In this document: one piece after another, positions 896-22,755 of the stretch
How positions within the stretch are numbered: the stretch's first letter is position 1
Layout: each line of letters begins with the position of its first letter
NCBI GenBank assembly: GCA_009602725.1
Contig: WELB01000338.1
Coordinates: 1 to 24,056 of the forward strand
Direction: 5' to 3'
Origin: Spirogloea muscicola
Taxonomy: Eukaryota > Streptophyta > Zygnematophyceae > Spirogloeales > Spirogloeaceae
DNA length: 24,056 nucleotides
Position numbers and translations under genes: made by a program
The notes under the pieces: model-generated
Databases searched by the model: none
What the model was told of the DNA's origin: nothing
Seen by the model: only the letters and a program-made list of their open reading frames with translations

Positions 896-1281
896 TTCCA
901 GTAGAGGCGATGGCTGTGGATGGCCAGCTCAGAGAAGAAAAGAATTGATATAGTTCGAAGGGGCCAGAAGAGCGCTAAGGGACTCAGCGACACAGCAAGT
1001 GGCCACTAGGCACTCGATATCCCCTGTTGAGCAGCCGCAGGTCAGAGAAACTAGTCTCTGGGCAGCGGGAGAGACACTCAGAAGCGAAGTGCTCACCCAT
1101 TGAGAATAGGGACTTGAAAAGCCAGCCCAAAAAAGAATGAACAGAGTACGAGAAGGGGGCCAGGGGAAGCGCTAAGAAAAGAAAAGAAAGTGCTCGCCCA
1201 AGAAAAACAAGCACACAGAGAAACAAAGCAGCTACCAATCACTCAGTAACCTCAGCTAAGCAGCCGCAGGTCGGAGATGCT
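896..1281 (-). mobile_element. Chimeric retrotransposon tail (A2 3' end joined to D 3' end) inserted in the promoter
   Basis: The insertion is flanked by the direct repeat AAGACTC at 889-895 and 1282-1288. The plus-strand paralogue keeps the uninterrupted site at about 16905-16921, so this is a true insertion. On the minus strand it starts in the last codons of a family A-like ORF (ISDLRLLS, then a premature TGA), followed by an A2-type 3' UTR and hairpin near 1111-1129. It continues into a second end carrying SFSDLRLLNRGYR codons (about 1054-1020) and a D-type tail with hairpin near 912-930. Only one target duplication surrounds both tails. Confidence 0.8.
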
Positions 1282-1288
1282 AAGACTC

Positions 1289-1898
1289 AGAGGGGAAGGG
1301 ACGAGCCTCGGAAGTGCAGAGGGAGAGAGAAGGCGCGCGGTGCGCATGGAATGAAAGGGTGGCAAATTAAAGCCAATAAATTGTCCAGGCAGACCTAGTG
1401 CAAGAATTGGGGCAAAGGAAAGAGGCAAGAGGGGGACGAGAGTGAGGGGACTGGGGAGTGGAAGAGGGAGGCGTCGCTACGCCCGCGCATTTCTCCGCTA
1501 TGTAGTATGAATACCCTCTGCGTGCACCTGCTGGCTTCACTCTTATCATCAGCAGCCGCAATCTTCGCTTCCTGCCCGCGCGCCGCGGCGGCCGCCGCCA
1601 TGCCTGGCGCCGCACATCTCGCAGCCGGCGGCACGAGGCGCGGCATCTCGCTCCAATCAGAAGAGGAAAGGTGTTGTTGATCCAATCGGCATGAGCCACG
1701 CTCGTGGCATCCAGGCGGACCGCGGCAGCCACGGCGGCCCTCGGGGCGGCGCCCGGCCCGGCACCAACAGGGAAGAGTATACTAACGCAGTAATGGTGTT
1801 TGTTCTACGGTTGCCATTGCTCCATTCATTTGTTTCCAACAATGCGACGTTTTTCCGCCATCTAGTTATTCTGATTTTCACTGAAGTTACTTGCTGAC
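1289..1898 (-). promoter_or_regulatory. Distal upstream region of paralogue 1, conserved in three copies
   Basis: On the minus strand this stretch aligns by eye with 16193-16900 and 22893-23440. Shared landmarks are TGGTCAGCAAGTAA, GGAGCAATGGCAA, a GC-rich block, inverted CCAAT boxes (CCAAT on the plus strand at 1653-1657 and 1682-1686) and GTAGCGACGCCTCCCT. Conservation around the CCAAT boxes suggests upstream regulation, although plain segmental duplication would also preserve it. The outer boundary coincides with a short palindrome TGACCAGAGGTCA near 1889. The open frames inside it are not conserved and are not called as genes. Confidence 0.55.
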
Positions 1899-1940
1899 CA
1901 GAGGTCATGACGCGCGCAGGAGTCATGGAGAGTAATTTGG

Positions 1941-1974
1941 TGCTTTTCTGCCAGCCCCTCTCTTCTATGAGAGG
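1941..1974 (+). repeat. Left piece of a G-type retrotransposon tail, split by a B copy
   Basis: It contains CTGCCAGCCCCTC and TTCTATG as in the uninterrupted G-type tail at 13455-13545. The continuation GGGCGAGCTCATTC appears only after the minus-strand B fragment, at about 2495-2512. The end also forms a small stem, CCTCTC/GAGAGG. Confidence 0.5.
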
Positions 1975-2487
1975 AAATCCGTGTATTAGAAAGAAATGTA
2001 GGCCAAATGGCCAAGTACAAAGGCAAGCACAATTGAAGATCTACATAACCTACAGCAGAATGACCCGCTCAATAACCACGGGTCAAAACATAAAGGTCAC
2101 TACTCGATGCATAAATACCAGATGCCAGAAAGCCCTTCTCTAAACCCTTCTGCCACCAATTAGAGCTCGCCCAGCTTTCTGGTGCAAGGCACTAGCCTGA
2201 GCACGCTGCATATCTGTCGCAAGAGCGACAGATATGCAGCTGGCAAGCCCATCTCAGCCGGAAACACATCTGCACGTCGAGTGTAGCCTAGATTGGCAAT
2301 GTTTTGAAGCAGTGTGGAAACGAGGACCCAGACAGCCATAGATGTCGATTGCCGCTGGCAGGAGCTGATCGCATTGGGGGTAATCGGAGTAATGCCGCAG
2401 TTTTCTTTGTTCTGCGCCGCCCACTGCGTACCCAGCGATGTGTGTCGATGCTGGGCCTTTACATGCCTCCGTAACAACAACGAGCGA
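1975..2487 (-). pseudogene. Family B non-LTR retrotransposon, 5'-truncated C-terminal fragment (copy B5)
   Basis: On the minus strand it starts at codons for VVVTEAYKGPAST and continues through the C-terminal part of the endonuclease region (KLRHYSDYPQCDQLLPAAID) to the B-type 3' UTR. The frame is broken: a base is missing in the CLGPRFHT-LLQ region, and near 2205-2240 the normal sequence is replaced by a palindrome. The 3' end carries the stop-codon stem and the GGCCAAATGGCC motif seen in other B copies, ending near TACACGGATTTCC. It has no coding capacity. Confidence 0.75.
2205..2240. repeat. Perfect 16-bp palindrome inside B5
   Basis: GCTGCATATCTGTCGC (2205-2220) is followed by AAGA and its exact reverse complement (2225-2240). 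Intact B copies have one arm only, followed by CGACGAGTTTCGGCC. Confidence 0.9.
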
Positions 2488-2494
2488 GCGAGCT

Positions 2495-2790
2495 CATGGG
2501 CGAGCTCATTCTTCTTTCTGCTCCTTCCGGCTCTTTTAGACCTTTGCACATTTCTCTGGGCTGGCTTCTCACAGCCATTGCCTTGGATCGGAAGAGCGGT
2601 TTCCCCTTGTTCTAGAGCACTCAATGTACACTTCCACGCAAGCCTTGTATACTCACATTGGCATTCTTTTAATTTTCCTTTTACCTTCTATTACATAAAT
2701 AAGTAACATGAAGGTAGTGTGATGCGGGAAGGGCTTGCACTGTGCGACGCGCATGCTTGATGGTCGGCCTGCTGAGCCCCGCCGTCCTTC
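2495..2790 (+). repeat. G-tail remnant followed by E-type repeat (hairpin 2558-2576)
   Basis: The first ~18 bases finish the G-type tail split by B5. The rest matches, by eye, 8260-8530 and the inverted copy at about 15060-15350: a pyrimidine-rich box, the hairpin GGGCTGGCTTCTCACAGCC, a GAGCRCTCAAT box, ACATGAAGGTA, and TGCACTGTGCGACGCGCATG. It resembles the other tails but continues ~200 bp past the hairpin, so it may be a longer non-autonomous element. No coding sequence is recognised. From 2791 to about 3015 nothing is recognised. Confidence 0.55.
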
Positions 2791-3015
2791 CGCCAGTCTA
2801 GGCGAGCATTGCGGAACTGCAAATGTTGCCCGCCCAAGGATCGGAGAGTAGCCCATCCGCGGCAGCCACTCGTGCTGTCGAGATTGGGTTGCTATCAGCC
2901 TGGACGAGCTGTTTCTTGATATCGGTTGTCCTCTTCGACATTGCTTTGTCCTCTCGGATTGGGTTGTTGGCATCTAAATGCCGGTCGCGCCTTGGTTGCA
3001 GTCTCTGGCTATAAC

Positions 3016-3200
3016 CAGAGGACCCGCTACCCAAAGACTAGTTTCTTTGACCTGCGGCTGCTCAACAGGGGATAATGAGTGCCGAGGTCCCACTTGAGTC
3101 GCTGCGCTTCAGCGCTTCTCTGGCCCCTTCAGAACTTGTCCATTCTTGATTCTTCTGGGCTGGCCATTCACGGCCATCGCCCTTTCTTGATAGTGGTTTT
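3016..3200 (+). mobile_element. D-type non-LTR 3' end (copy D2)
   Basis: The start matches the D half of the chimeric insertion at 896-1281 (CCGCTRCCC then ACTAGTTTCT). It encodes FDLRLLNRG followed by TAA and TGA, then a UTR with TGGCCCCTTCAGAACTTGTC and the hairpin GGGCTGGCCATTCACGGCC near 3157-3176. It is a 5'-truncated end retaining only the last codons. Confidence 0.65.
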
Positions 3201-3313
3201 TCTTCGAGTCCTCCTCGCTTTTCGGCACCGTCGACGTCGTCAACACTTTTTGGGCTGCCTTTTTACCACCCTCGCCCCCTTTGGAATACAACAGCTCTTC
3301 CAAACTAAGGCAG

Positions 3314-3444
3314 GGGCTGTAGATAGCCAGCCCAGAATAATTGGACAAGGTCCACAGGGCCAAAAGGCGCCTAAATTTCAAACCCATGCAAGAGATAACA
3401 GCGGATGGGAGCTTAGTAACCTCAAGGTAGCAGCAGCAAGTCGG
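3314..3444 (-). repeat. F/D-like tail plus a short repeat shared with 22818-22892
   Basis: On the minus strand, 3372-3314 reads TTTTGGCCCTGTGGACCTTG, then TCCAATTATT and the hairpin GGGCTGGCTATCTACAGCC. The part upstream of it (3444-3369) matches 22818-22892 on the plus strand (ACTTGCTGCTGCTA, ACTAAGCTCCC, TTTAGG). From 3445 to about 3765 no gene is recognised; a 231-codon open frame spanning 3079-3774 crosses the D tail and looks accidental. Confidence 0.45.
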
Positions 3445-3765
3445 AGTGAGGTGCAGCTGGAAAAGAGGCACCCCGACAAGACGCAGAAGCAGCTGCCACG
3501 GCGCGGCCTGCCCGCTTCAGCACTGCGTGAGCCAGGGAGCGTTGGAAGGAAAACGACAGCCGCTTCGGAACACCTTGGCCAAGGACCCGGCAGTGCTGAA
3601 GCCGGGCAGCTCACCTTGCTGACCCTGCCCGCGACCGATGGCCTGCCGCGAAAGAAGTCACTCCTCTTCGATTTAGAAAGAAGGTGCTCGATTCGATTTA
3701 GGGCTCTCCGCGTTGACCTCCTGCCCGTTCCTCTGCTCAAGACCTTTTCAGATACCCCCCTCGGC

Positions 3766-4165
3766 CGCCATTAACACCTTCGGCTGCATGGGTCCTCGCT
3801 TAATACCCTTCTTGAGAACCTCGCGAGAATGGGATATGCACGACGTGAGGATATGCTTCCAGCTCAGATGGGCATGACGGCAGCCGACTTGTCATTTTTG
3901 TGACGTCGAGTGTCAGCCTGTCTGCAGCGAGCTCAGGCTCATGCGTTGCATTCAGAAAGCTGGTCGAGCCTTAGCTGGTGGCACAAGCGCATGTTTATTG
4001 CCGCCCGGTATTCGGGCATCAGTTAACGACCTCTTATGTGCTGACTCGTGGTTACTGAGCGGGTCAGCTTAGCAGCAGGTGATGTACATTTGTCAATGTG
4101 CATGCCTTTGTACTTGGCCACATAGGCCCTCCATCACTTAATACACACTCATTTCTCTTCGCAGG
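3766..4165 (+). pseudogene. Family B retrotransposon, old 5'-truncated copy (B4)
   Basis: Translation gives AINTFGCMGPRLNTLLENLA and GYARREDMLPAQMG, matching the C-terminal region of B1 and B2, then a stop and several frame breaks. The 3' part keeps CTCGTGGTTACTGAGCGGGTC and CTTTGTACTTGGCC. It is more diverged than the other B copies. The following 4166-4390 shows no clear gene; B1 may extend into it. Confidence 0.65.
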
Positions 4166-4390
4166 AAGGCTATTTTTAGCGTCGTCTCCCTAAGGAGGTG
4201 ATGGTGCCTCTTCTACAGTGTGTGGCTCTAGCCTGACAAAGGCATTTACTGCTGCACCGGCCTCCTCTGCCTTCGCCATCGTTCGAAGGCTTTCTTGACA
4301 TCTTTTCTGCCATTTCATTCTCCTTGAGGCTCCGATTTTCCACAACCGGGGGGTGGTAGTCGTCAGTGGGGAATCGTCAGTCTGATAGCC

Positions 4391-5300
4391 TTTGCCACAC
4401 CTGGTGCCACTGACTAGATCGCCTCTCCCCCCGTCGCCAACGCCTTCAGCATCAGCTCCGAGGCCTTTCGGACATCGCTTCAACTCTTTCTCGGCTCCCA
4501 CCTAATTGCCTGATTGGGGTGCGCCGGTGCGAGTGCGGCTTCCGTGCAGAGGGTGCTGTGCTCGCCACTCACATGCTGAGATGCCCCACTGGACCAGAAG
4601 TGGTGGGCATTTACAACCTCCTTTGCGATGCCCTGGCGGGCTTGATGCGCGACGCCGGCTACCGTGCGGTCGTGGAAGTCAACAATATCATGCCTATCAC
4701 CACGGACGCCCAGGGACGTCATCATCGCCGCACACTTGACACTGTGGGCGTGCAACCTGGTGGAGGACCACGGGCCCTGGTCGACGTTGTTACGGAGGCA
4801 TATAAAGGCCCAGCATCGACACACTTCGCTGGGCACGCAGTGGGCGGCGCAGAACCAAGAAAACTGCGGCATTACTCCGATTACCCCCAATGCGATCAGC
4901 TCCTGCCAGCGGTAATCGACATCTTTGGCAGTCTGGGTCCTCGTTTCCACACTCTCCTTCAAAACATTGCCAATCTAGGCTACACTCGACGTGCAGATGT
5001 GTTTCCGGCTGAGATGGGCTTGCCAGCTGCATATCTGTCGCTCTTGCGACGACGAGTTTCGGCCTGTTTGCGGCGTGCTCAGGCTAGTGCCTTGCACCAG
5101 AAAGCTGGGCGAGCTCTAGGTGGTGGCAGAAGGGCTCCGTTTCTGGCATCTGGTATGCATGCATCGAGTAGTGACATTTGTGGTTTGACCCGTGGTTATT
5201 GAGCGGGTCAATCTGCTGTGAGGTATGTATTTCTTCAGATGTGCTTGCCTTTGTACTTAAACATTTGACCTACATTTGTTTCTAATACACGGACTTTTTC
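4391..5300 (+). pseudogene. Family B retrotransposon, 5'-truncated (copy B1), endonuclease region
   Basis: The open frame 4519-5202 encodes the C-terminal endonuclease module: a CCHC motif (CECGF..THMLRC), RRTLDTVG, then LVDVVTEAY, keeping both acidic residues at 15-residue spacing, and a tail ending SDICGLTRGY-stop. Upstream coding similarity to B2 begins near 4391 but is broken by an in-frame TAG near 4413 and a one-base deletion near 4499, so this is not a functional gene. The 3' UTR runs to about 5300 (TTTCTAATACACGGA). In full elements this nuclease nicks target DNA to prime reverse transcription; here no RT is present. Confidence 0.75.
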
Positions 5301-6434
5301 TTACATAACGGGGCCACCGCCGAGACATAAAGGCCCGCCAGACATATGCGACAAGAGGGTCCCGCTAAGAGAGCCCTGCCTTCTCTTTAGATCTGACCAG
5401 GGGTCATGTAGAAGATTTAAGATGATGGAAGATACAATTATGCTGACGGCAGACTGCCGTCAGATCAGGTGTCTATCATCTGGAGGCCTTTGACTGGCCA
5501 GCCATATGACTGGCAATGGCATGTTGGAATGCGCTTCTCTACCGGGCTGGTAAACACGAGTGGCCAGGTTAATCAATGTCGACCTATCTGGACGGCCCGC
5601 AATCTCATTGATTGGCTACTCCGAAGGAGGGTGGCCTCCCGCACCCTGGCAAGGCCACTGTAAATTTGTACTGATGACCCGGCTGACAGGCATTGTTGAC
5701 TAGCCCCAACACCGGCTCCAGATGTGCCGTTGGTGTTGTTGCTGCACAAAGTTGCCATTCCCATGCACTACCGCAGGTACTGCTTTCTAGGTTACAGAAT
5801 GGGGGTGGAGAGATCATGCCCAAAAGCATGGACAGGCAAAAAGCAGAGACGGCACTTAGCCACTCTATGTCAAGTGTGAAAAATCATCACGAAGCCTGCT
5901 GATTGCGAAGCCCAACCCATTATTGCGCGGCCTTAGATAAGTAGCATCCACGCAAACAAGTTGGGAGGAGTGTTAGCGATCGCCAATTTTTTGTTTCATT
6001 GTTTGCCTTAAATCTTTAGTCAGGGTGCAGCAATAACAGAAATGCTTACACTGGCCCAACCCATACGACAACAATAGATCTCAGAGTGTTGGGGGCTATA
6101 GGACAATGCTCCTTTCAGCTCCCATACGGCGGGACTGCTGGCCTTTCGCTTGCCTGCTTTCTAGCAGGCAATTTACTTCGAAGGGCATTCCCTTGTTAGA
6201 GGCTCTAGTACTTAACAAGCACTTTGTTTGAGCTGGCATGTTGGATGATGGTGCTTCCAACAAGCGAAGGTACGATTGGAAAGCAGCTGCGCCTATCATC
6301 TGCCTTTTGAAAGGCTGACACTCTTTGCACCTCAACGTGCTGGACGTTAGTGGGAGCTGCAATACTATCCATGCCTCCGTAGAAGGACAGCCACTCCCTC
6401 GGCATCGAAATCTCATACTGAGAGTGGTATCTCA
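5301..6434. other. No recognisable gene; two palindromes
   Basis: I see no coding sequence or retrotransposon similarity here. Notable structures are a palindrome CTGACGGCAG-A-CTGCCGTCAG at 5443-5463, lying in a wider imperfect inverted repeat (about 5418-5482), and the hairpin TTGCCTGC-TTTCTA-GCAGGCAA at 6150-6171. A TGACCAGGGGTCA palindrome near 5397 resembles the one near 1889. Confidence 0.5.
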
Positions 6435-8170
6435 CTCGGCAGCAGCTGAAAACATGGCGGCTTACCCTTGCTCGTTCGCGAATTGGATCGATGGGCCTCC
6501 GGGTGCCCGTCCAAGAGCGTGGCCTGGTCCCCACACGGTCTCCCTGCCAACCTTAGCTCCCCCACGGCTGTCAGACCCCTGCCAATGGGCTGGCCATCCT
6601 TAAGGTCCCCTTCGGTACACCAGCTCATGTGGCGGTGGACTTGCGGGAACGCCTTCAAAAAAAATTGCCTCCCTCCCTTTCCTTCCCCTCCTTGGGGACA
6701 CGCAGCTGGCGTTGGCCATCCTCACCCGCTGCATCGGCCAACGGGCTTGCTATCTGCAACGGACAGTCGCCCCATTGGGCATGGTGGCGGAGCTCTAAAA
6801 GGAATATGATGACTCCCTTCAGCAGTCCCTGGCATCCCTACTACATTCTTCGTCTTTCCCCTCAGCTTCAGCTTCCCTCCAGGCTTCCTTCCCTACTCGC
6901 ATGGGCGGCCTTGGCTGCCGGTCGTCGGAGCAGACGGCGCAAGCAGCCTTCCTGGGCTGCTGGCACCAGATCGCCTCCCTGCTCCCCATGCGCTTCCCTT
7001 GCCCCCACGACCCTGTACGCAATGTGGAGGAAGGCTCATTCCCCTTCCAAGCGGATCTGAGGAGCATCCGCGTCTCAGCCATCAGCTCTTTTCCCTCTCT
7101 CTAACCCATACTCACGCCATTCTCCGCCCTCGCCCAGGCTTCTGATAGAGGGGCACAATCCAGACTGGTTACGGCAGTGGAAGACGAACGCCGCAGAAGG
7201 TTGAGGAGGCTGCCAGAGATTCTGAACAATCCAAGGAGCTTGGCAAGACTTACTTCTCTGGCCACACCTGGTGCCACTGACTGGATCACCTCTCCCCCCG
7301 TCACCAATGCCTTCAGCATCAGCTCCGAGGCCTTTCGGACATCGCTTCAACTCTTTCTCGGCCTCCCACCTAACTGCCTGATTGAGGTCCGCCAGTGCGA
7401 GTGCGGCTTCCGTGCAGAGGGTGCTGTGCTCGCCACTCACATGCCGAGATGCCCCACTGGACCAGAAGTGGTGGGCATTCACAACCTCCTTCGCGATGCG
7501 CTGGCGGGCTTGATGCGCGAAGCCGGCTACCGAGCGGTCGTGGAAGTCAACAACATCATGCCTATCACCACGGACGCCCAGGGACGTCATCATCGCCGCA
7601 CACTTGACATTGTGGGCGTGCAACCTGGTGGTGGATCACGGCCTTTGGTCGACGTTGTTGTTACGGAGGCATATAAGGGCCCAGCATCGACACATATCGC
7701 TGGGCATGCAGTGAGCGGTGCAGAACAGAGCAAACTGCGGCACTACTTCGATTACCCCCAATGCGATCAGCTCCTGCCAGCGGCAATCGACATCTATGGC
7801 TGTCTGGGTCCTCGTTTCCACACTCTGCTTCAAGACATTGCCAATCTAGGCTACACTCGACGTGCAGATGTGTTTCCGGCTGAGATGGGCTTGCCAGCTG
7901 CATATCTGTCGCTCTTGCGACGACGAGTTTCGGCCTGTTTGCAGCGTGCTCAGGCTAGTGCCTAGCGCCAGAAAGCTGGGCGAGCTCTAGTTGGTGGCAG
8001 AAGGGCTCCAATTCTGGCATCTAGTATTCATGCATCGAGTAGTGACCTTTATGTTTTGACCCGTGATTATTGAGCGGGCCAATCTGCTGTGAGTTATGTA
8101 GATCTTCAGATGTGCTTGCCTTTGTACTTGGCCATTTGGCCTACATTTGTTTTTTACACACGAAATTTTC
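6435..8170 (+). pseudogene. Family B retrotransposon, longest copy (B2): RT 3' half to tail, broken
   Basis: This copy begins in the late RT region. KSVAWSPHGLPANLS matches element A's KCAAWSPSGLPPNLT, and LALAILTRCIGQR matches LSLAMLTRAIGQR, but in different frames. From 7177 to 7965 a continuous 262-codon frame covers the pre-CCHC region, the CCHC (C74, C76, H88, C92 of that frame), RRTLDIVG (D144) and LVDVVVTEAY (D159). A TAG at 7963-7965 truncates it about 40 codons early; B1 has a Leu codon there. The remnant then reads SDLYVLTRDY-stop and a B-type 3' UTR ending around TTTTTTACACACGAA. Frameshifts and the stop make it non-functional. It is the best template for family B's domain order. 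Confidence 0.8.
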
Positions 8171-9145
8171 TTCCCAAGGGGACGCCAACCAGATCTGAAT
8201 ACTAAGACGACAGCAGGTGGACTCTCAAGGGGCTTAAGCGCAAGAGTTGTAGAGAGTTGTTTTGTGCTTTCTGCAACTTCCGGCCCTTTCAGAACTTGTA
8301 CTATTGTTGGACTGGCCTTTTACATCCATCGCCTAATATTGCAAGCCCTGTATCCCTATGTTCTACAGAGCGCTCAATACACTCTCACGCAAACTTTGTA
8401 TACTTGGATTGGAATCTTCAAAGTAGTTCAATTATTTTAAGTTTCTGTGGCTGACATGAAGGTAAACTTATATTCGAGGGCCTGCACGGTGCAACGCGCA
8501 TGAATAATTGACTCGCCGTCTGCAAGAAATGATTATCGTCAAGCGCTTTCCCTGAGGCCGAAGGCGTGGGTGTCGCAAGCAAGGGTCCGAGCCAAACAAT
8601 CAATGCGTCAAGACAAGGCAATAAGATAACGGTTGAATTGTAAACAATGTGTCATACAGGCGTCCAGGGGAATGAAAAAGAGAAACCTCCTTGGGCGCTT
8701 CTACTCTTTGTATACCACGTAGAGGTTTCGCGGAGCCCTGCCTGCGGCCTCATGGGACTAATAAGCGCCCGGCCACTTGCTACAACGCCTTCACGGAATA
8801 TCCCCGTGGCCGGCGCCTCCGCCGCTGCAGTTGCCGCCGAGTTCGGAAACCCGTGCCTAAGAAGAAAGTGCTCGCCCATTGAGAATAGGGGCTGGAACAA
8901 CCAGCCCGAAAAAGAATGAACAGAGTACGAGAAGGGGGCCAGGGGAAGCGCTAAGTAACAGAAACAAAGCTGCTACGAGACACTCAGAACTAGGAGTTAA
9001 GATTCCGCGATGGGGCTTGTGCCGCCGTCGCGCTCTGGAAATGAGGTTGTCAGCGTCGCGTGCCGTTATTAAGGTTTGCGCTTTCTCCAATATCGCGTGT
9101 CGTCCTTCGCCCGACTGGTGAGGTGGTTGGCCTCCTCAATGAAGG
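8170..9145 (-). repeat. Left arm of diverged inverted repeat (IR unit)
   Basis: Read on the minus strand it matches 14646-15430 on the plus strand, from CCTTCATTGAGGAGGCCAAC to GATCTGGTTGGCGTCCCC. By eye the first ~150 bases differ at roughly one position in ten. It contains an E-type repeat (about 8260-8530, plus). It has two differences from the right arm: the A-tail insertion at 8864-8985 and about 85 extra bases near 8750-8840. No gene is recognised in it. Confidence 0.75.
8864..8985 (-). mobile_element. 122-bp A1 tail insertion with 4-bp TSD
   Basis: The insert consists of family A's 3' UTR only, starting within the stop codon (GAGTGTCTCGTAGCAGC) and ending GCGAGCACTTTC. AGAA flanks it at 8860-8863 and 8986-8989. 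The inverted arm near 14805-14815 has the empty site CTAGTTCTTAGGCACGG, so the insertion postdates the duplication. The hairpin GGGCTGGTTGTTCCAGCCC lies at 8889-8907. Confidence 0.85.
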
Positions 9146-9179
9146 AAAGAAAGTGCTCGCCCATTGAGAATAGGCGCTG
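9146..9179 (-). repeat. 3' part of an older A-like tail, split by the full-length element
   Basis: CTATTCTCAATGGGCGAGC and ACTTTCTT are read on the minus strand, ending against IR-unit DNA. It is preceded by CAGCGC (plus strand GCGCTG, 9174-9179), which recurs at 13299-13304. The 5' part of the same tail is at 13305-13414. Confidence 0.75.
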
Positions 9180-9210
9180 AAAAAAGAAAGTGCTCGCCCA
9201 TTGAGAATAG

Positions 9211-9229
9211 GGGCTGGAACAACCAGCCC
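9211..9229 (-). other. Conserved 3' UTR hairpin of element A
   Basis: GGGCTGG-TTGTT-CCAGCCC forms a 7-bp stem with a 5-base loop. It is the reference copy of the tail hairpin found at 20 or more places in this window. RT recognition of 3' RNA structure is known for R2; that this hairpin serves that role is inference. Confidence 0.8.
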
Positions 9230-13205: not shown

Positions 13206-13212
13206 GGCGGGC

Positions 13213-13414: not shown

Positions 13415-13454
13415 CACCTGAACCCTATTCAGGACCTAGCCCTATCTCTCGGCA

Positions 13455-13688: not shown

Positions 13689-14633
13689 CTCTTCCCCGGG
13701 GGCTGCGGCGTGGCTCCAGGCCCTCCCCCTCTACGACGCCCTCACCCTCCCGGACGAGGTATTCCGAAGTGCCGTCCACCGGCTCCTGGGCCTACTGCCG
13801 CCATGTCTCCAGGGTGTGCGTCAATGTGAGTGTGGCGAGCGCGGGACCGAGCCTGGAGAGCTGGCTGCTCATGTTCTGCGCTGTTCCCACGGCGGAGAGC
13901 GGACAGCGGCCCACGACCGCCTCCGCGACGTAATGCATGGCATCCTGTTGGAGGCTGGTTTCTCCGTGGCAGCAGAGCACTCCGGAATCATGCCAATCCA
14001 GCACAGGGCCGACGGTCTCCATGCCAGGCGTGTAGACCTGGTGGCCACCCGACAGGCCGGCGGGCCACGTCTTCTCCTGGACGTGGTGACTACTGATGCC
14101 TATGACCGCTCACACCCAGCCAAATGTGCCACCACGGCTGGGTATGCGGTCGCCTGCGCTGCTCGGGCCAAAGAGCTGAAGTACGCGGATCATCCGCGGG
14201 AAGACGAGTTCTTCCCGTTGGCCATCGACACACATGGGGCGCTGGGCGCTCGGTGGCTCGAGCTGCTCACCCAGCTCGCCCGCCACACCATCGCCCGGCG
14301 CTTCCATGGGGAGCCGGTTGACTTCCCTGCAGCCGGGTCGCTGGCGCAAGTGTATCGAATGCGCCTGGCCGTCTCGCTGCAGAGGTCCATGGCCCGGGCG
14401 CTGCACCTTCGTGCCGGCAGAGCCCTCGCTGCTGCCTCTGGCTCTGGCCAGGGGACCCACTTCCAGGAGCCCAGCATCTCTGATCTGCGGCTGCTTAGCA
14501 GGGGTTACTGAGTGTCTCGTAGCAGCTTTGTTTCTGTTACTTAGCGCTTCCCCTGGCCCCCTTCTCGTACTCTGTTCATTCTTTTTCGGGCTGGTTGTTC
14601 CAGCCCCTATTCTCAATGGGCGAGCACTTTCTT
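13689..14633 (+). mobile_element. 5'-truncated copy of element A (C-terminal 230 aa plus 3' UTR)
   Basis: It begins at CTCTTCCCCGGGGG and matches 10128-9306 as a reverse complement with no indel. The 230 shared codons are identical, and translations of the other frames are also identical. The open frame in the copy (13816-14511) keeps the CCHC and both nuclease Asp residues and ends SDLRLLSRGY. It lacks the RT and a start of its own, so I treat it as a dead truncated copy. The hairpin is at 14588-14606. The tail ends CACTTTCTT at 14633, followed by 12 bases absent from the left arm and then IR-unit DNA. Confidence 0.85.
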
Positions 14634-14645
14634 CGTTGAGAAGGC

Positions 14646-15430
14646 CCTTCATTGAGGAGGCCAACCACCTCACCAGTCGGGCGAAGGACGACGCGCGACA
14701 TTAGAGAAAGCGCAAACCTTAATAGCGGTACGCGACGCTGAAAACCTGAACTTCCAGCGCGCGACGGCAGCACAAGCCCCATCTCGGAATCTGAATTCCT
14801 AGTTCTTAGGCACGGGTTTCCGCATTCGGCGGCGACTCCAGCGGCTCCGCGAAACCTCTACGTGGTATACAAAGAGTAGAAGCGCCCAAGGAGGTTTCTC
14901 TTTTTCATTCCCCTGGACGCCTGTATGACACATTGTTTACAATTCAACCGTTATCTTATTGCCTTGTCTTGACGCATTGATTGTTTGGCTCGGACCTTTG
15001 CTTGCGACACCAACGCCTTCGGCCTGCCTCAGGGAAAGCGCTTGACGATAATCATTTCTTGCAGACGGCGGGTCTCAGCAGGCCGGCCATTAGTCATGCG
15101 CGTTGCAACGTGCAGGCCCTCGAATATAATTTTACCTTCATGTCAGCCACAGAAACTTAAAAGAATTTGAACTGCTTTGAAAATCCAATCCAAGTATACA
15201 ATGTCTGCGTGAGAGTGTCATTGAGCGCTCTGTAGAACAAAGGGATACAGGGCTTGCAATGTTAGGCGATGGCTGTAAGAGGCCAGTCCAACAATAGTAC
15301 AAGTTCTGAAAGGGCCGGAAGTTGCAGAAAGCACAAAACAACTCTCTACAACTCCTGCGCTTAAGCCCCTTGAGAATCCACCTGCTGTTGTCTTAGTATT
15401 TAGATCTGGTTGGCGTCCCCGTGGGAAGCG
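14646..15430 (+). repeat. Right arm of diverged inverted repeat (IR unit)
   Basis: It is the inverse of 8170-9145. It lacks the 122-bp tail insertion and about 85 bases near 14842. It includes an inverted E-type repeat (about 15060-15350, minus). The arm ends at GGCGTCCCCGTGGGAAG. No gene is recognised. Confidence 0.75.
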
Positions 15431-15464
15431 CGGCCAGATTGACTGGTGGCTGGTGGGTGGTATT

Positions 15465-15619
15465 TAGCACTCCGGCTCCTTCAGATCTTGTCCATTGCTT
15501 TGGGCTGGCCTCTCACATTCACCAGTCAATCTGGCTGCGCTTTCTTCCCCTTGCCCCCTTCTCGTACTTTTTGTTCATTGTTTTTGGGCTGGCTTTTCCA
15601 GCCCCTAAACTCAATGGGC
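15465..15619 (+). repeat. F-type tail fused to an A-type tail
   Basis: The F tail (CTTCAGATCTTGTCCATTG, GGGCTGGCCTCTCACA, CCAGTCAATCTGG) runs directly into an A-type tail at GCGCTTTCTTCCCC. The A-type part has its hairpin GGGCTGGCTTTTCCAGCCC at 15586-15604 and ends CTCAATGGGC. Confidence 0.6.
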
Positions 15620-15637
15620 CCTTTCTCGCCCATTGAG
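15610..15637. repeat. Fold-back of the tail tip
   Basis: CTCAATGGGC (15610-15619), CCTTTCTC, then GCCCATTGAG (15628-15637). The tail's terminal box is followed by its own reverse complement at the junction with the next truncated element. Confidence 0.85.
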
Positions 15638-15897
15638 AGGTCTATGGCCCGGGCGTTGCACCTTCGTGCCGGCAGAGCCCTCGCTGCTGCCTCTGGCTCC
15701 GGCCAGGGGACCCACTTCCACGAGCCTAGCATCTCCGACCTGCGGCTGCTTAGCAGAGGTTACTGAGTGATTCGTAGCTGCTTTGTTTCTCTGTGTGCTT
15801 GTTTTCTTAGCGCTTCCCCTGGCCCCCTTCTCGTACTGTTCATTCGTTTTTGGGCTGGCTTTTCCAGCCCCTATCTCAATGGGCGAGCACTTTCTTC
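15638..15897 (+). mobile_element. 5'-truncated A2 element end
   Basis: It begins AGGTCTATGGCCCGGGCG, matching element A's codons for RSMARA, and keeps the last ~42 codons to SDLRLLSRGY and TGA. The 3' UTR is A2-type (GTGATTCGTAGCTGC, GTGTGCTTG), with its hairpin at 15852-15870 and end GCGAGCACTTTCTTCTTTC. A single substitution gives HEPS instead of QEPS. Confidence 0.75.
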
Positions 15898-16192
15898 TTT
15901 CTCGCGGTCCACGCGCGCGGGGGCCGTGCTATGGCTACTGCTTCCGGGTCTCGACAGAGTGCCGCTTTTCCTGCTTCGAGTTACTTTGATCTGCTGTTGC
16001 TCAAACGTGGATACTCAGCATCCATCTGCATCTCCCTCCGCACCGTCTCGCACCGTCTCGTGCTTTTCACAGCCCTTGCTTTGTAGTGTAGTCCTTTTCC
16101 GGCACTTTTTACTTTGGCTTTGAACACTGTCCATTCTTTTTGGGTTGGCTTTGCCAGCCCCTCTTCTCTTTGGGCGAGCTCTTCTCTCTCTC
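15898..16192 (+). mobile_element. 5'-truncated C-type element end (C2)
   Basis: GGTCCACGCGCGCG through CTTCCGGGTCTCGACAGAG to SYFDLLLLKRGY matches the 3' end of C1 (22340-22600), followed by the C-type UTR. The hairpin GGGTTGGCTTTGCCAGCCC is at 16142-16160. The stop after RGY is lost (TACTCAGCA). It abuts the conserved upstream region of paralogue 2. Confidence 0.7.
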
Positions 16193-16922
16193 TGCGAGTG
16201 GGCGCTCAATAAATCTTTGGTTACCAAGTGGTTACCAGAACAACGACATTGCGGAAAGACGTCGCGAATGCTGAGAACCGAGGGGGCCAAAAGCGCTTTC
16301 TCAAGCTTGCCCGGTAGGATAATCACTTAGGACCCACTAGTGCAGTGGCAATGGCAGGATATTACAGTACTCGTTTGGAATCCTTCCCTCCTGTCATGTC
16401 GGCGCCGGCCCCGAGGGCTGCCTGGCGGCCGCGGTCGGCCCGTCAGCCGGCCGGCCGGCCAGCGAGGACATCACGAGCGTGGCCCGTGCCCGATTGGTTT
16501 GGCTGCTTCTCTCTCCTTTGATTGGAGCGAGAAACCGCGGCCTCGTGCGCCGGCTGCGAGACGTGCGGCATGCCCGGCATGGTGGCGGGCGCCGCGGCGC
16601 GTGGGCAGGAAAGCAGAATGCAGGTGCTGATAATTTGAGAGCGGCTGTGAGAGCCAGCCGGGTGCATGTAATGGGTGTTTTTGTCTATGTAGCAAAGAAT
16701 GCAGGCATCGCAACGCCTCCCTCTCCCTCTCCCACTCCCAAGTCTTCTCGCTCTCTTCGGCCTCTTTCATCTTTCCTTTGCCTCCCATCAATAATCGATT
16801 CTGTCTGAACAGTAAATTGGCTTGATTTGGCCACCCTTTCGTTTCATGCGCACCGCATGCCTTCTCTCTCCTTCTGCACTTTCGGGGCTCGACCCTCCCC
16901 CTCTGAGTCTCTCTCCCTCTTC
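16193..16922 (+). promoter_or_regulatory. Upstream region of paralogue 2
   Basis: It matches the regions at 1289-1898 (inverted) and 22893-23440. It has inverted CCAAT boxes (ATTGG) at 16493-16497 and 16521-16525, a GC-rich block and a pyrimidine-rich stretch leading to the TATA box. The uninterrupted site for the insertion at 896-1281 is at its downstream end. Confidence 0.55.
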
Positions 16923-16928
16923 TATAAG
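16923..16928 (+). promoter_or_regulatory. TATA-like box of paralogue 2
   Basis: TATAAG lies 81 bp upstream of the coding start, the same spacing as in paralogue 1. Confidence 0.6.
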
Positions 16929-17008
16929 AGTCCCGAGGTGCTCGGCCCTCGGCTCAGACGCGCCTGGCTCCTGCCTCCACATCTGCTTGCCCATCTGGCT
17001 ACCTGCAC

Positions 17009-18672
17009 ATGGCGACCTCCAGTCTGGCTTGCAAAGGTTGGCGGCTGCGCTTCCGTTACCTCGTGCTGCTTGCCGTCGTAGCACCCTTCTGCTGCAGCCA
17101 TGTCGATGCTGCCAAGGAGGAGCTCGAGTACGCCATTCTCAGCGACGACACCGGGGAGATGTTTCACGCCAAGGGGCTGCCAGTTGGCATGACGACCAAC
17201 AGCGACGACTGCATCCTGGTGCATCACACAGGATGCACTGCGAGGGCAAGGTGAGTGGACGAACTGCCCCCATTGCTACTGCTATCATGCCTTGCGGTGG
17301 CAGTATCTTCTATGCTGTTGACTCTAATCAGTGCACCCCAGAATAAGTGGCAAGTTCGCGCAGATTAGCGAAGGTGGGCGTATGAGCCTTCAGAAAAGTG
17401 GTCCCCGGAACTGACTGTTTCCTTCTTGATGCGGCAGATGGCGCTGTGTGACATGTGAGGCAGGAGACCACGTGGCGGCCGATCGCTTCACCAGCTGCCA
17501 TGTCAAATTCGAGCCCGTGGAAGGAGCATCCTTAGTTCGTTTAACATGTCAGGCTGTTAACCACATGACAGAGGGTGTCTCCACGCTTGTGGATACTGGC
17601 TACTACCCCAAGCTCTTTCCAACAGCGCTACGCAAGTGCACCTGGCCTCATGATCGCGTCCCTCCACTCCGGCCTCATCGCACAAAGCTCTGTAATGATA
17701 CCCAGGACCGATATGAAGGGCTTCAACGCGCAAGGCGACTGACAGGCTCCACGTGCGCAAGTAACGGCTGCACAAACAAGCCCTGCAGCGGCGCTCCTGG
17801 CGGTACCGCAGGCAGTTGTGGCTGCCAAGGAGACTGCACCCCTTCGTGTAAGATACTCCTCCACCCATTTGTATCATGTCCAGATTCGGAATAGTCGTAC
17901 ATGCATTTAGCATGTTGCTGTGTTGGTTTAAAAGCATGAGGTCAGCCCCATGCTTTGAATCCAACCTGCACGTCTCACAGTTACTGCAATCGTCCACACA
18001 GGAGTCCTTATTCACGTCTACACTGGAAGTACATCTATTAGCACCAATTAAGTTGACTTTATTTGCACATTAATCTCGTAACCTGGGATGTGAATACGGG
18101 ATGAAGATCATGACTCCTGTTTGTTGTTGCCACTTCCTGGCAGGCGGGTGCGCATGCCAAGACGTAGGGACCAATGGCAACACCGACTGCCAGTGCGTAT
18201 CAACAACTTCCAGCAACGGTAAGGAGGCCACAGGTGCATGTTCCTCGAAACAAAAGTCGAAATCAAATTAGGATCCAATAGTATAGCTCCAATGTATGGC
18301 TAGAGGCGGTCATACTTGCAAGCTCCTCTCCCGATGCTAGCTGCACAAGACCTGACAGTCGTGCAGGTATTAGCTCCAGTAACCTGCCTATTCGTATCCT
18401 GTAGATCTGCAGTGCTCTGCCACAAAGCAACTGCTGTGGTCCTTCGTGTCAGAACCTCATGAGTTCGCATTGTTCTGGCAGCTTGTAATACGCCACCGGC
18501 GCCGCCACCTCCAGTCTGTGCGAACCATGGATGTGCCTGTTCCGCAGTGACGGGGGGCTACCTCTGCACATGTAACACAGACGGATGTAGTGGGTGCTCT
18601 GGCGGAGACTTCGGAACAAATGAAGGGGATCATGTGGGATGTAGAGGCGTTGATTGTGGTCATTGTCTGTGA
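17009..18672 (+). CDS. Secreted Cys-rich protein, paralogue 2 (four exons, 294 aa)
   Basis: Proposed exons: 17009-17250, 17438-17847, 18144-18218 and 18515-18672, all with GT-AG borders and together an exact 295 codons including TGA. Residues 1-35 form a signal peptide (RYLVLLAVVAPFCC core), so secretion is likely. Exons 1-2 form a domain with few Cys (CVTC, SCHVKF, LTCQAV, RKCTWPH), shared with paralogue 1. Exons 2-4 add Cys-rich repeats: CASNGC..SCGCQGDC, CGCACQDVGTNGNTDCQC and CANHGCACSAVTGGYLCTC, then GCRGVDCGHCL-stop. Exons 3 and 4 were chosen because phase-1 joining gives a continuous Cys pattern, and CANHGC echoes CASNGC. Exon 4 could instead start at 18549. The family and function are unknown; Cys-rich repeats would fit disulfide-stabilised extracellular modules. 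Confidence 0.7.
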
Positions 18673-19680
18673 AGTGGTCGACTTGCGACTGTATGGAGAT
18701 TGCGGAGCTTGACATGTCAAATCAGTGAGACTAGAAGGTAGACCAATATGAAGTTTACAACTTGCTCTGCCTTCGTGGTCGACATGCACTAGCAGGTTGC
18801 AGAGCTTGATGACTCAAACGGAAGGCTAGAAGATTGGCTATCATGAGTCACATACTGCGGCTGCTTATGTTTAGGTGCGGTTGTGAAGATCAGCCTGTTC
18901 AATATAGGCGCAATGGGATTGCAAATTAGGGATGCGAAGCCGTCAGGCTGGGCAACAGGGCCCTCTCAGCGCTCTTATTGGGGGGCTGCGTTGCCTAAGA
19001 GCCTACATCCTACACATAGAGTCTGACAAGGTTTTATACAGAAGAACACCAATAACAGCTTCGGATATTTGTTTCTGAAAGCTGCGCTCCATGACTTCCT
19101 TTTACATTCTTGTGTGAATGCCTGAGCAGGCATAATGAGCAAGATAATGCAAGATCATGCATTCATAGGCACATCATTTTATCAGGTGCAATTGTCAGGC
19201 GCCTTGAGGGATTCGTGAGATGCACACAACTAGCACCAGACTAGCAAAAAATCGACACATGCAAGAAAAGGAGGACCGCAATTGGTGATATTACCTTGCT
19301 ATCGTCCGTGGAAAGCATTGCGCTAGAGGAGAGGAGAAGGCGAAGGGAACGGAAGAAGAATGGAAAGGGGAGGCAAGTTTAATGAAGTGCTTACAGGCAC
19401 GGGGGTAGGGAGACGAAAGCCAATATACGAAGGAAGAAAGTGGTATGGGTAACGAATGCTCGACAATAGACGGCAAAATTTGGAGTGATAGTGTCTGAAA
19501 TATACTGCAACACGTAAGAGCGGAGGAGGATGGTGGAAGTACGGACCAGAATAAAGAGGGGGAGAATGAAAGTAAGGAAGTCGGGAGAGAGTGGAGAGGG
19601 AGTGCATCTGAGAAGCTGACTCATGCTCTCATGACGTTTAGACAAAGGCATGTATTGACATACCAGCAAGCTGTTTAACA
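18673..19680. other. Intergenic region with a purine-rich tract
   Basis: No gene or retrotransposon similarity is visible. From about 19325 to 19620 the plus strand is strongly purine-rich (runs of GGAGAGGAGAAGG type). The minus-strand open frames there are compositional. No clear polyadenylation signal for the upstream gene was identified. Confidence 0.45.
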
Positions 19681-19828
19681 AGCGCTTTTGGCCCCTTCGG
19701 ACCTTGTCTGTTTTTCAACCTTGTCAATTGTTTTGGGCTGGCCTCTCACAGCCACCAGTCAATTTGGAAGCGCTGTTGAGATTTCGGGCTAGCTGTGCAC
19801 AGCCCTTACCCCGTTTTTGGGAGAGCTA
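19681..19828 (+). repeat. F-type tail followed by a second hairpin tail
   Basis: GCGCTTTTGGCCCCTTCGGA, then the hairpin GGGCTGGCCTCTCACAGCC near 19735-19752 and CCAGTCAATTTGG. A second stem, GGGCTAGCTGTGCACAGCCC, follows at about 19786-19805, just before the B3 fragment. Confidence 0.55.
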
Positions 19829-20155
19829 TGTATGACGTGCAGATGTGTTTCCGGCTGAGATGGGCCTGCCAGCTGCATATCTGTCGTACTTGCAACGACG
19901 CATTTCGCATTTCGGCCTGTTTGCAGCGTGCTCAGGCTAACGCTTTGCACCAGAAAGCTGGGCGAGCTCTAGTTGGTGGCAGGAGGCTTTCGTATCTGAC
20001 ATCTAAAATGTAGGCATCGATCAGCGACCTTCATGTTTGGACCCGTGATTACTGAGCGGGTCAGTCTGCTGTAGGTTATGCAGGTCTTGAGATGTGCTTG
20101 CCTTTGTACTTGGTCATTTGGCCTTCGTTTGTTGTCAAATATACGATATACTCCC
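19829..20155 (+). pseudogene. Family B 5'-truncated fragment (B3)
   Basis: It starts GACGTGCAGATGTGTTTCCG and covers the C-terminal ~60 codons of B (LPAAYLS.., ACLQRAQANALHQKAGRALV), with a 9-base duplication (GCATTTCGCATTTCG) and an early TAG. The 3' UTR matches B1 and B2 (GACCCGTGATTACTGAGCGG, CTTTGTACTTGG). Confidence 0.75.
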
Positions 20156-20395
20156 TTGCAGGGTGGACCTGGCGAGGGTATAACAGGATTGGCGGATTGC
20201 CCGCGCGCACCTGGGCGGGCACTTGCCCGTTAAGCCGCCCGCCCGTGCGGGCCACTTGCCAACTCTTGTCACTTCTTGTCGATTCTGTTCGGGCTGGCTT
20301 TTCACTGAGAAAGCGCGGCCAGATTCTGGTGGCTGGGAAAGGCCAGCCCAAAGGAATGGACAAAGTCCGAAGGAGCCGGAGCGCGAAGGACTTGG
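20156..20395. repeat. GC-rich fold-back region and two opposed tails
   Basis: 20190-20260 contains self-complementary GGCGGGC/GCCCGCC blocks. A plus-strand tail stub (GATTCTGTTCGGGCTGGC) near 20280-20306 meets a minus-strand F-type tail at 20316-20395, whose hairpin GGCTGGGAAAGGCCAGCCC is at 20331-20349. Both share GAAAGCGCGGCCAG, as F tails do. Confidence 0.45.
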
Positions 20396-20603: not shown

Positions 20604-20625
20604 GGCAGCGTGGCTTTAATATAGA

Positions 20626-20695
20626 AGAAGAAAGTGCTCGCCCATTGAGAATAGGGGCTGGAACAACCAGCCCGAAAAGGAATGAACAGAGTACG
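20626..20695 (-). mobile_element. Minimal 70-bp A-tail insertion with 11-bp TSD
   Basis: The direct repeat TTTAATATAGA flanks it at 20615-20625 and 20696-20706. The insert, on the minus strand, begins CGTACTCTGTTCATTC, contains GGGCTGGTTGTTCCAGCCC (20654-20672) and ends GCGAGCACTTTCTTCT. No coding bases are included. Confidence 0.9.
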
Positions 20696-20706: not shown

Positions 20707-21070
20707 GCTGAGAGCGGCGCAACCCGGAGTCGTGACACGCGAGACAGCATGGTGCTGGCGCTGGAACGGCGACGGGAGGTGGCAGTGCTGTAGACTGCCT
20801 TGACGGCGTTGTTAGTCGTTAGTGATGACGGCTGACGATAGCCTGGGGGTAGTGACCGTCAGCTGCTAGTGACGGGGGACCGTCAGTACGGCGGTGGTTG
20901 CCGATGGATGGGTAGATTGTCGGTGGTAGCCCGTTGATAGCCGTCGACAGGTCGTGGACGGGTCGTCAACGAGAGACTGGGTGCCAAATGTCCCACCCGG
21001 GCCCGTATGGCCGGGCTCGCAGTCCGTCGGGCTATATAGAGGGCACCCGAGATGGGAGGGGGGGTGAGTT
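20707..21070 (+). promoter_or_regulatory. GC-rich promoter-like region with TATATA
   Basis: TATATA lies at 21033-21038 in GGGCTATATAGAGGGC, preceded by repeated GACCGTCAG / GTGACGG motifs (20860-20890) and GGCCCGTATGGCCGGGC. It resembles a promoter or part of an LTR, but no matching second LTR, primer-binding site or downstream gene is visible. Confidence 0.3.
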
Positions 21071-21222
21071 CTTCACCCAACCTCGGACCCCTGGACCCTT
21101 GCCCCTGCAGTAACCGTTGCTCAATTTTACCGTTGCGGCCCCATCCCAATGCCTCCCCGCTTTTCCTAGAGACCGCCGGCAGCCCGGGCTTGGCGATCCA
21201 CAGCATTCCTTACAGTCCCCAT

Positions 21223-21420
21223 GGGGCCAAGGGCTGTGAAAAGCCAGCTCGAAAAGAATTGACGAAGGGGTCGAAGGGGCCACAATGACGGAGGGACCTG
21301 AAAATCTTCTTTTGTGCTTGTCTTGCGTAGCGCTGCCCCTGGCCCCGTTCTTGTACTTTGGTCATTCTGTTTTGGGCTGGCTGTTCCAGCCCCTATCCTC
21401 AATGGGCGAGCCCTTTTTCT
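21223..21420. repeat. Opposed tails: D/F-like (minus) and A2-like (plus)
   Basis: Minus: TTGTGGCCCCTTCGACCCC to a GAGCTGGCTTTTCACAGCCC hairpin at 21231-21250. Plus: GTGCTTGTCTTGCGTAGCGC, TTCTTGTACTTTGGTC, the hairpin GGGCTGGCTGTTCCAGCCC at 21373-21391 and CAATGGGCGAGC. From 21421 to 21522 no feature is recognised. Confidence 0.6.
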
Positions 21421-21522
21421 GAAAATGCTATGTTTCACAGCCCTTGCACCCTTTTGGGACTGCCACTTCTCTCTACTTGCTCGTCAAGCGGCAAGCGGCT
21501 AGCGGCTATAATGTGAACAGCC

Positions 21523-22600
21523 CCCGACCTGCGGGCCCAGGCCCGCTACACTGCGCTTGTGGACAAAGCGGCCTATGACCAGGTGGTGGAGCTCCTTCCG
21601 CCAAACGACATCCGAGGGCGCGCCTGGGTTTTCTACGCCCCCTTTCCAGGGGCGGCGGCGTGGCTATCAGCACTCCCCATCTGCGTGGCGCTGACAATTC
21701 CAGACGCGGTTGTCAGGACGACGGCCCACCGGCTCCTTGGCTTCCTCCCTCCCTGCCTCGTCGGGGTCCAACAGTGCGAGTGCAGTGCCCGCCACGATGA
21801 CCCTGCGGCGCTGGCGGCCCACATGCTCCGCTACGCGCATGGGGGCGAGCGGACAGGTTCACACGACCTCCTGCGAGACGCCATGCAGGGTGTGTTCCTG
21901 GAGGCCGGCTACAAGGTGGCAGTGGAGAACTCGACGATCAAGCCCATCCTGCGGGGCGCTGACGGACAGCTTCACACCCGCCGTGCGGACCTCGTTGCCA
22001 TTCCGCCCGGAGGAGGTCCGCATATCATCGCTAATGTGGTGACTGCAGATTGCGTTGATTCGGCCAACCCCGCGAAGTCGGCGACGCTCGTCGGGCACGC
22101 GGTCGCTTTGGCAGCTCGGAGTAAGGATCGCAAGTGCTCTGACCACCCTCCAGGCAATGCCTTCGCGGCACTGGCCATTGACTTACTCGGGGCCTTTGGC
22201 AGTGGCTGGTTGTATCTCCTCCAGCGGCTTGCCCGGGAGGCCATCGAGCGGCGGCAGGGTTCGCCAGGCTTCAAATGCTGCCGGCTCCCTCGCGCAGGTC
22301 TCTCGGATGAGGCTGGCGGTCTCGCTACAGCGCTCTTTGGCTCATGCGGTCCACGCGCGCGCTGGCCGTGCTATGCTTGCTGCTTCCGGGTCCCGGCAGA
22401 GTGCCGCTTTTCCTGCTCCGAGTTACTCTGATCTGCTGTTGCTCAGACGTGGATACTGAACGTCAATCTGCATCTCCCTCTGCACCGTCTTGCACTTTGT
22501 AGTGTAGTCCTTTTTCGGCACTTCTTTCTTTGGCTTTGAATATTGTCCATTGGGTTGGCTTTGCCAGCCCCTCTTCTCTAAGGCGAGCTCTTCTCTCGAA
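21523..22600 (+). pseudogene. Family C non-LTR retrotransposon, 5'-truncated, dead nuclease (C1)
   Basis: Coding similarity to element A starts at DLRAQARYTALVDKAAYD and runs through PGAAAWLSALP, HRLLGFLPPCL, a CCHC region (CECSA..HMLRYAH, where the last Cys is replaced by Tyr) and RRADLVA. The second catalytic Asp is Asn (IIANVV instead of LLLDVV). A frameshift near 22260 moves the remainder (AAGSLAQVSRMRLAVSLQRS to SDLLLLRRGY-stop) into another frame. The UTR has the hairpin GGGTTGGCTTTGCCAGCCC at 22552-22570 and ends GGCGAGCTCTTCTCTC. The frameshift and lost residues make it non-functional. Confidence 0.8.
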
Positions 22601-22679
22601 CAGCACCGGGGTGCCTAATCAAACGGTGAGATCGTTACAGTCAGGCTAAGTCAAGCGGGCACATATTGTGTAAGAAAAG

Positions 22680-22755
22680 AAGAAAGTGCTCGCATATTGA
22701 CGATAGGGCTGGAAATGCCAGCCCAAAAAGAGAATGAACAGAGTACGAGAAAAAG
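22680..22755 (-). mobile_element. A-type minimal tail insertion
   Basis: On the minus strand: TCTCGTACTCTGTTCATTC, the hairpin GGGCTGGCATTTCCAGCCC (22706-22724), then TATGCGAGCACTTTCTTC. It contains the tail only. A short GAAAAG-like duplication may flank it but is not clear. Confidence 0.7.

Follow-up and report, generated by a model that had tools for sequence, protein, structure and literature searches.

The 3' ends of retrotransposons were analysed in a window of 24,056 nucleotides from Spirogloea muscicola, taken from the start of contig C338 (WELB01000338.1), and compared with the assembly (153,112,186 bases in 471 contigs). The assembly encodes chlorophyll a/b-binding proteins (48 matches among 100 scored candidates). 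By summed bits, one translated exon matched a two-domain chain (9vfj_2) best, followed by the moss chains 8htu_U and 7xqp_a (342 bits) and, lower, by the Chlamydomonas chain 6kac (320 bits), which tentatively points to a streptophyte-type green alga. The window holds a long copy of a long interspersed nuclear element (LINE) of the restriction-like endonuclease (RLE) type, element A, among pieces of related elements and many copies of a short 3'-terminal sequence, here called a tail. A preliminary description had proposed that several retrotransposon families share one tail architecture, at 20 or more sites. That number was borne out, with 23 tails by the seed nhmmer profile, 25 by the iterated profile (at least 15 bits), 22 by a covariance model and 27 by a sequence-only model (the last two run with Infernal); sequence boxes, profiles and Infernal models agree. 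Over 20 windows shuffled by dinucleotide, the best score of the seed profile was 6.2 bits, so that none reached 15, and Rfam at its gathering threshold gave no match to the window. The features are listed below; an entry without a stated basis rests on the sequence-only model, and "also" marks a basis additional to it.

9309-13298 (-): element A, long copy of an RLE-type LINE (open reading frame, RVT_1, R2 matches in the PDB, motifs)
9187-9308 (-): type A tail of element A, about 122 nt (profile and Infernal models)
13304-13405 (-): older A2-like tail, 5' half, split by element A (halves joined score 28.6 bits)
9145-9186 (-): older A2-like tail, 3' half (also joined-halves score)
13689-14640 (+): 5'-truncated copy of element A, type A tail at 14512-14634 (952 nt 100% identical to 9177-10128)
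8854-8958 (-): type A tail copy
1080-1176 (-): type A tail copy with a broken stem
15803-15904 (+): type A2 tail, with an A-like coding end ahead at 15636-15766
15556-15620 (+): short A-like tail
20622-20695 (-): short type A tail, truncated beside GTACTCTGTTC (also profile)
21328-21421 (+): A-like tail (GGGCTGGCTGTTCCAGCCC) (also profile)
22673-22752 (-): short A-like tail
16102-16192 (+): type C tail (also profile)
21559-22459 (+): decayed C-terminal RLE coding piece of a type C element (54-57% amino acid identity to A)
22508-22599 (+): type C tail belonging to the 21559-22459 copy
13451-13544 (+): H-like tail (also profile)
3104-3207 (+): type D tail
877-982 (-): type D tail (also clustering)
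2523-2608 (+): G/D-like tail (also seed profile)
3287-3369 (-): degenerate tail
3215-3286 (+): degenerate J-like tail (also profile)
15470-15552 (+): E/F-like tail (also clustering)
20307-20386 (-): type E tail (also clustering)
20270-20305 (+): tail fragment abutting the type E tail 3' to 3'
19680-19777 (+): type F tail (also clustering)
19782-19831 (+): J-like tail fragment (also profile)
21216-21291 (-): type J tail (also clustering)
8264-8356 (+): G-like tail
15239-15334 (-): G-like tail, inverted-duplicate partner of 8264-8356
7177-8160 (+): family B piece, RLE coding end with its own unrelated tail (40% amino acid identity to A)

Tail types and the elements that carry them

The 14 stem positions given in the preliminary description (1111, 2558, 3157, 8889, 9211, 14588, 15586, 15852, 16142, 19735, 20654, 21373, 22552 and 22706) all lie within sequence-only matches. 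The two copies holding the A tails at 9211 and 14588 show no difference along 952 nt, so these tails are not independent evidence. The common GGGCTGG..CCAGCCC stem is complete, with 7 bp, only in A- and C-like types; in the other types the claim of a full stem did not hold, the D, E, F and G types having GGGCTGGCCNNTCNCAGCC and a stem that is shorter or bulged. In the copy at 1111 the stem is broken. Exact boxes occur in the window 5 times (TGGCCCCYTTC), 7 times (CAATGGGCGAGC), 8 times (GTACT..GTTCATT) and 4 times (TTGTCCATT). Of these, TGGCCCCYTTC is restricted to A and A2 tails, so that CCTGGCCCCYTTC is not the general tail feature it had been taken for; at its position the D type has one C fewer, and the C and H types have CTTTGGCTTTG or GGCTCTTTGG. 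The CAATGGGCGAGC box is present as described, but a related box, TGG(G/A)(C/A)GAG, closes the D, G and J types too. The main types differ in this closing segment, in the loop of the stem (H1) and in the box preceding it. An iterated search over 122.7 kb (the window and selected loci) gave 228 hits, among which 160 distinct tails of at least 25 bits were grouped at 30% distance into 54 clusters; 14 clusters have at least two members.

Twenty 3-kb pieces were drawn at random from the genome, with 50,329 non-N bases in all. They contained 17 tails of at least 15 bits, spread over 8 of the pieces, six in L116, four in L135 (a piece overlapping a place fetched earlier for other reasons), two in L132 and one in each of five others. 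Five block-shuffled versions of this sample contained none. The projection to the whole genome is about 52,000 tails, although bootstrapping spreads this figure widely, from 17,000 to 97,000. A search with a 63-nt tail as query gave no candidates, probably because words so common were passed over.

The open reading frame (ORF) of element A is listed as 13316-9306 on the minus strand and encodes 1336 aa; comparison with other long copies places the start of the copy itself near 13298. The predicted protein has a reverse transcriptase (RT) domain (RVT_1 at aa 613-841, E 8.3e-16), whose best PDB matches are R2 retrotransposon proteins (E 7e-07), and two N-terminal zinc fingers (CPTC..HRRHC at 103, CQLC..HQRTC at 302). 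At the C-terminus, R.D..DV and KELKY (KX2KY) at 1177-1228 correspond by motif to residues of RLE LINEs. KX2KY and a CCHC knuckle of the form CX2-3CX7-8HX4C are named as RLE-LINE motifs in PMC5678591; the spacing in element A departs from that form, being CX1CX12HX3C (CECGERGTEPGELAAHVLRC), which is knuckle-like. The same spacing is found in L014, a C-type locus, and family B has CX1CX11HX3C. Element A therefore has the single ORF, the RT and the downstream RLE-like part of an RLE-type LINE, the last by motif only. C-terminal coding identity to A is 54-57% for C and 40% for B, and in the type C piece of the window the knuckle and one acidic residue are changed. From their coding sequences, we classify the carriers of the tails as RLE-type, R2-like non-long terminal repeat (non-LTR) retrotransposons. 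The 150 best RVT_1 matches in the assembly (e.g., C33:908349-908831) outscore that of element A; many have long open frames, one of 1237 aa for example, and several copies are equal in score.

Linkage, descent and constraint of the tails

To relate tails to coding regions, the assembly was searched with the C-type coding piece (9,811 first-look candidates, of which 135 were scored, with 136 matches at E 1e-10 or better), and 40 loci were picked from the matches by coding similarity alone. Loci L001 and L011, which overlap the window, were left out of the tail search. A recognisable coding end was found in 38 of the 40 loci, and 35 of these 38 have at least one tail. Counted by coding ends, 43 of 50 are followed by a same-strand tail (at least 10 bits, within 400 nt), at a distance of 36-116 nt in 42 cases; the remaining one, at +271, is shared, being the tail of a nearer end. 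A conserved 3'-terminal sequence, the mark of stringent-type LINEs, thus extends across families. Family B is the exception, as the preliminary description had it, with no profile match in its tail. That tail has a small inverted repeat of its own, GGCC-ATTT-GGCC and variants, at 8110-8150, 4105-4125 and 20110-20125 of the window.

The constraint on the tail is seen between element A and the C-type copy at L014. Over 798 codons, they are 77.8, 80.2 and 47.5% identical at codon positions 1, 2 and 3, and in the last 60 aligned tail bases 54 are identical, with one gap. The alignment score of this end is 46 against a maximum of 10 in 1,000 shuffles; scores were used for the control because shuffled pairs reach 0.90-0.93 identity by opening gaps. 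The 3' untranslated region (UTR) just upstream aligns no better than shuffles (695 of 1,000 at least as high). Across 45 copies, tail and coding divergence are correlated (Mantel r 0.54, 0 of 2,000 permutations as high). In 34 of the 45 copies a core of about 50 nt could be cut out; its mean distance is 0.108, and that of the last 150 coding nt is 0.259. The regular expression that cuts the core failed in 11 copies and favours conserved ones. The tail is inherited vertically with the coding region, and its core is strongly constrained. Free exchange or a single recent source are accordingly poor explanations of the sharing between families, and the proposal of one 3'-terminal architecture common to several families is upheld, with a constraint beyond what recent copying gives.

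We think it likely that each tail is the last 60-120 nt of an element from one of many related RLE-type, R2-like families and that the end of about 60 nt serves as the template-recognition element of the RT, a reading suggested by sequence comparison. The encoded RT would use this end to select and position its RNA template during target-primed reverse transcription, and inserted copies would consequently keep the end while 5' parts are lost. Several results weigh against this reading. Seven of the 50 coding ends have no tail. The whole extracted tail, with 25 nt beyond it, is more diverged than the last 150 coding nt (mean distance 0.326 versus 0.269), so that only the core is unusually conserved. 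The RLE part of element A was confirmed neither by a profile comparison with the PDB nor by an AlphaFold2 model of the C-terminal domain (predicted local distance difference test score 38.5), on which no fold search was made. In addition, the G, J and J2 tails (3 of 12 families) fold no better than shuffles, and both sets of stems scored for covariation show none.

RNA structure and alternative explanations

The preliminary description had seen RNA structure under selection in loop changes that leave the stems paired. This was not supported, since compensatory change is absent, an outcome that the description had itself named as refuting. In a structure-blind alignment (A1) of 77 sequences, taken from 100 references of at least 38 bits, the outermost of the seven H1 pairs is standard in 42 rows. 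Each of the other six is standard in 73-76 rows and hardly varies; the variation seen is a one-sided C-to-U wobble in 10 rows. The covariation score of H1 together with a second element, H0 (RRAC-N3-GUYC), is 0.074 against 0.080 in shuffled alignments (426 of 500 at least as high), with 85.7% of cells paired against 86.1%. Both sides change in 2 pairs, where shuffling gives a mean of 2.8, and in 11 cells, where it gives 11.5. H1 combined with a long-range GUYCAUU/AAUGGRC stem lies again at the shuffled mean, without covariation. With no covariation above shuffles, selection on structure is undemonstrated. The stem does fold at 13 of the 14 window positions; a stem this near to invariance is unable to show covariation, and its invariance speaks neither for nor against pairing. 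A further candidate hairpin (CUC..GAG) was rejected, as its register moves between types; it is paired in 49-54 of the 77 rows, a per-pair count made without controls. When the tails of 12 families were folded together, a consensus structure came out only under the ribosum option. These tails fold slightly better than shuffles, with modest z-scores that average -1.42 (range -3.13 to +0.53), against -1.43 for the reverse complements and -0.28 for 25 ORF pieces. From conservation and folding energy, and not from covariation, the GGGCTGG/CCAGCCC inverted repeat probably forms a hairpin in the tail RNA.

It is possible, though less likely than not, that the end is recognised as primary sequence, single-stranded or read by protein, with the inverted repeat incidental or partly paired. 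The stem arms are near-invariant in sequence and not merely in pairing, and the fold z-score is the same on both strands. Also, the sequence-only model gave 50 matches and the model with the stem 39 (E<=0.01, 21 sources), which is no more than indicative, as the two differ in effective sequence number and in allowing partial matches. On the other hand, the arms are kept while the inner loop varies by type (TTGTT, CTTTT, CTTTG), and the main one-sided change, C to U opposite G, retains a wobble pair, though the rows with it look like one family.

Improbable, in our view, is an exchange of tails between families by template switching or recombination, in which sharing would reflect transfer and not descent. 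R2-type RTs are able to jump templates, and nested arrangements in which a tail lies directly beside a coding piece are many and varied; yet the correlation of tail with coding divergence argues against such transfer. A somewhat fainter prospect is that the tail acts at the level of DNA or transcript, as a terminator or poly(A) signal, and not in reverse transcription. Its 3'-end position and T-rich terminus would fit such a role. Against it stand three long A copies on different contigs (L004-L006), in which an A tail and an identical spacer of about 170 nt precede the 5' end of the element (about 1205-1501 in L004 and L005, about 1599-1895 in L006), and the DNA further upstream differs. This arrangement is best read as one RNA running through a tail, and it probably represents a transposed dimer or a read-through RNA with the inner tail unused.

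That many tail-only copies are short interspersed nuclear elements (SINEs) borrowing the LINE tail is very unlikely. Of 192 distinct upstream stretches (again without L001 and L011), 136 have no LINE coding sequence directly upstream, as SINEs would; however, after masking of tails and LINE sequence, 86 of these 136 keep at least 60 nt, and the largest cluster among them has 12 members (10 listed), which share an apparent 3' UTR of the D type, directly behind the end of the coding sequence. The remaining clusters have 2-3 members, several being overlapping stretches of one locus, and the short copies of recent origin are simply element A with its 5' part missing. No SINE-like head or SINE partner was seen upstream of tails in this small sample of 192 stretches. 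Hardly tenable, finally, is recent copying of one unconstrained sequence, which the preliminary description had itself named as a reading that would undo its proposal: at least 40 type A tails are 100% identical, as are some copies within the window, and within family A such copying may hold, but between families it is refuted by the 54 of 60 tail bases that A and C share despite 47.5% third-position identity, and by several tail subtypes whose divergence tracks that of the coding regions.

Insertion, clustering and known relatives

Among 1,073 candidates, 40 were scored, and these gave 40 young tails, on 39 retrieved pieces, that are identical to the tail of element A along 123 nt. Of the 400 nt retrieved upstream of each tail, 10 of the 40 copies match A throughout; the other 30 are 5'-truncated somewhere in this stretch. 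Their 3' flanks differ in the first 12 nt in all 40, with a T-rich start (T at +1 in 30). For 25 copies both junctions were usable (10 were too long and 5 adjoined N), and 15 of these 25 pairs have target duplications of 5-9 nt (median 7) that differ in sequence; a stricter test without element letters retained 13 of 25 against 50 of 600 mismatched pairs. Older tails are frequent near the insertions: the roughly 200 bp of the reconstructed empty site contain one in 12 of 25 cases, against 6.2% of 2,000 random windows, and 200 nt of 3' flank contain a tail piece in 25 of 40, against 5% of 1,000 random flanks. The insertion point itself is spanned by a tail in 2 of the 25 empty sites, which is so for 1.6% of random positions. 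Given 12 sites with a tail nearby and 2 with a tail spanning, the clustering is at least regional, and a site preference for tails is not shown.

Element A of the window is itself such a case, as it was inserted in the H1 loop of an older tail. The pieces 13304-13350 and 9145-9174 are two halves of that tail, which score 18.4 and 6.8 bits separately and 28.6 bits once the flanks are joined. The tail upstream of element A was considered as its 5' UTR, and this was rejected for the window in favour of nested insertion. Nested and truncated insertion explains the density of tails, and repeated insertion into tail-rich regions would give at least 20 of them in 24 kb.

Other arrangements were noted as well. 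At 20270-20386, two tails meet 3' end to 3' end, and similar convergent pairs occur in other loci. Element A is flanked by a large inverted duplication (33-9145 versus 14646-17746), which includes two copies, 93% alike, of a host gene whose product is Cys-rich and looks secreted (33-881 on the minus strand, 16916-17746 on the plus strand), and in which 8170-9145 matches 14646-15428 in pieces of 87-99%. Near the end of contig C20, positions 1131614-1132104 match window 13200-13690 at 100% over 491 bp, which is either a recent duplicate or an uncollapsed haplotype.

The elements resemble R2 (R2Bm, R2Tg) in their protein, which is encoded by a single ORF and has zinc fingers at the N-terminus, an RT and RLE-like motifs at the C-terminus, and in a short 3'-terminal RNA element. 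For R2Tg, a donor that keeps just the last 67 nt of the 3' UTR still integrates, and 50 nt are not enough (PMC12222951). R2 uses one site in 28S ribosomal DNA, whereas here all 40 young 3' flanks differ. Stringent-type LINEs (UnaL2, ZfL2, SART1; L1 of algae) likewise have a conserved 3' end; theirs resembles a stem-loop, as that of the present elements probably does. They are of the apurinic/apyrimidinic endonuclease type, and many share their 3' end with SINEs. The present elements differ in being RLE-type, and a SINE partner was not found here among the 192 upstream stretches. Stem-loops at the 3' end are also reported for L1 of algae (PMC5135761). Both R2 and stringent LINEs are known to have a short RNA element at the 3' end that the RT recognises; the resemblance of the present tails to these is anatomical, and recognition is inferred. 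A further parallel is Zepp, another kind of LINE. Its clusters in Coccomyxa/Chlorella are likewise nested, clustered LINE insertions in a green alga (PMC3446292). Zepp forms one cluster per chromosome; here, tails were present in 8 of 20 random 3-kb pieces.

The RLE LINE group is described as generally site-specific (PMC5678591); the RLE LINE analysed here, from the green lineage, is by contrast dispersed and present in high copy number. We found no paper on RLE elements of green algae or Chlorophyta in a literature search that left most subscription journals outside. A bolder reading, which we regard as unlikely, is that the 3' RNA code of about 60 nt is read interchangeably by the RTs of many diverged RLE-LINE families; the tens of thousands of tails would then be one cross-mobilised pool, and elements of a usually site-specific kind would have become generalists of high copy number that re-insert among their own tails. 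Diverged RLE-LINE families with matched 3' ends would, in any case, offer a natural series for studying template choice by R2-like RTs and mobilisation across families.

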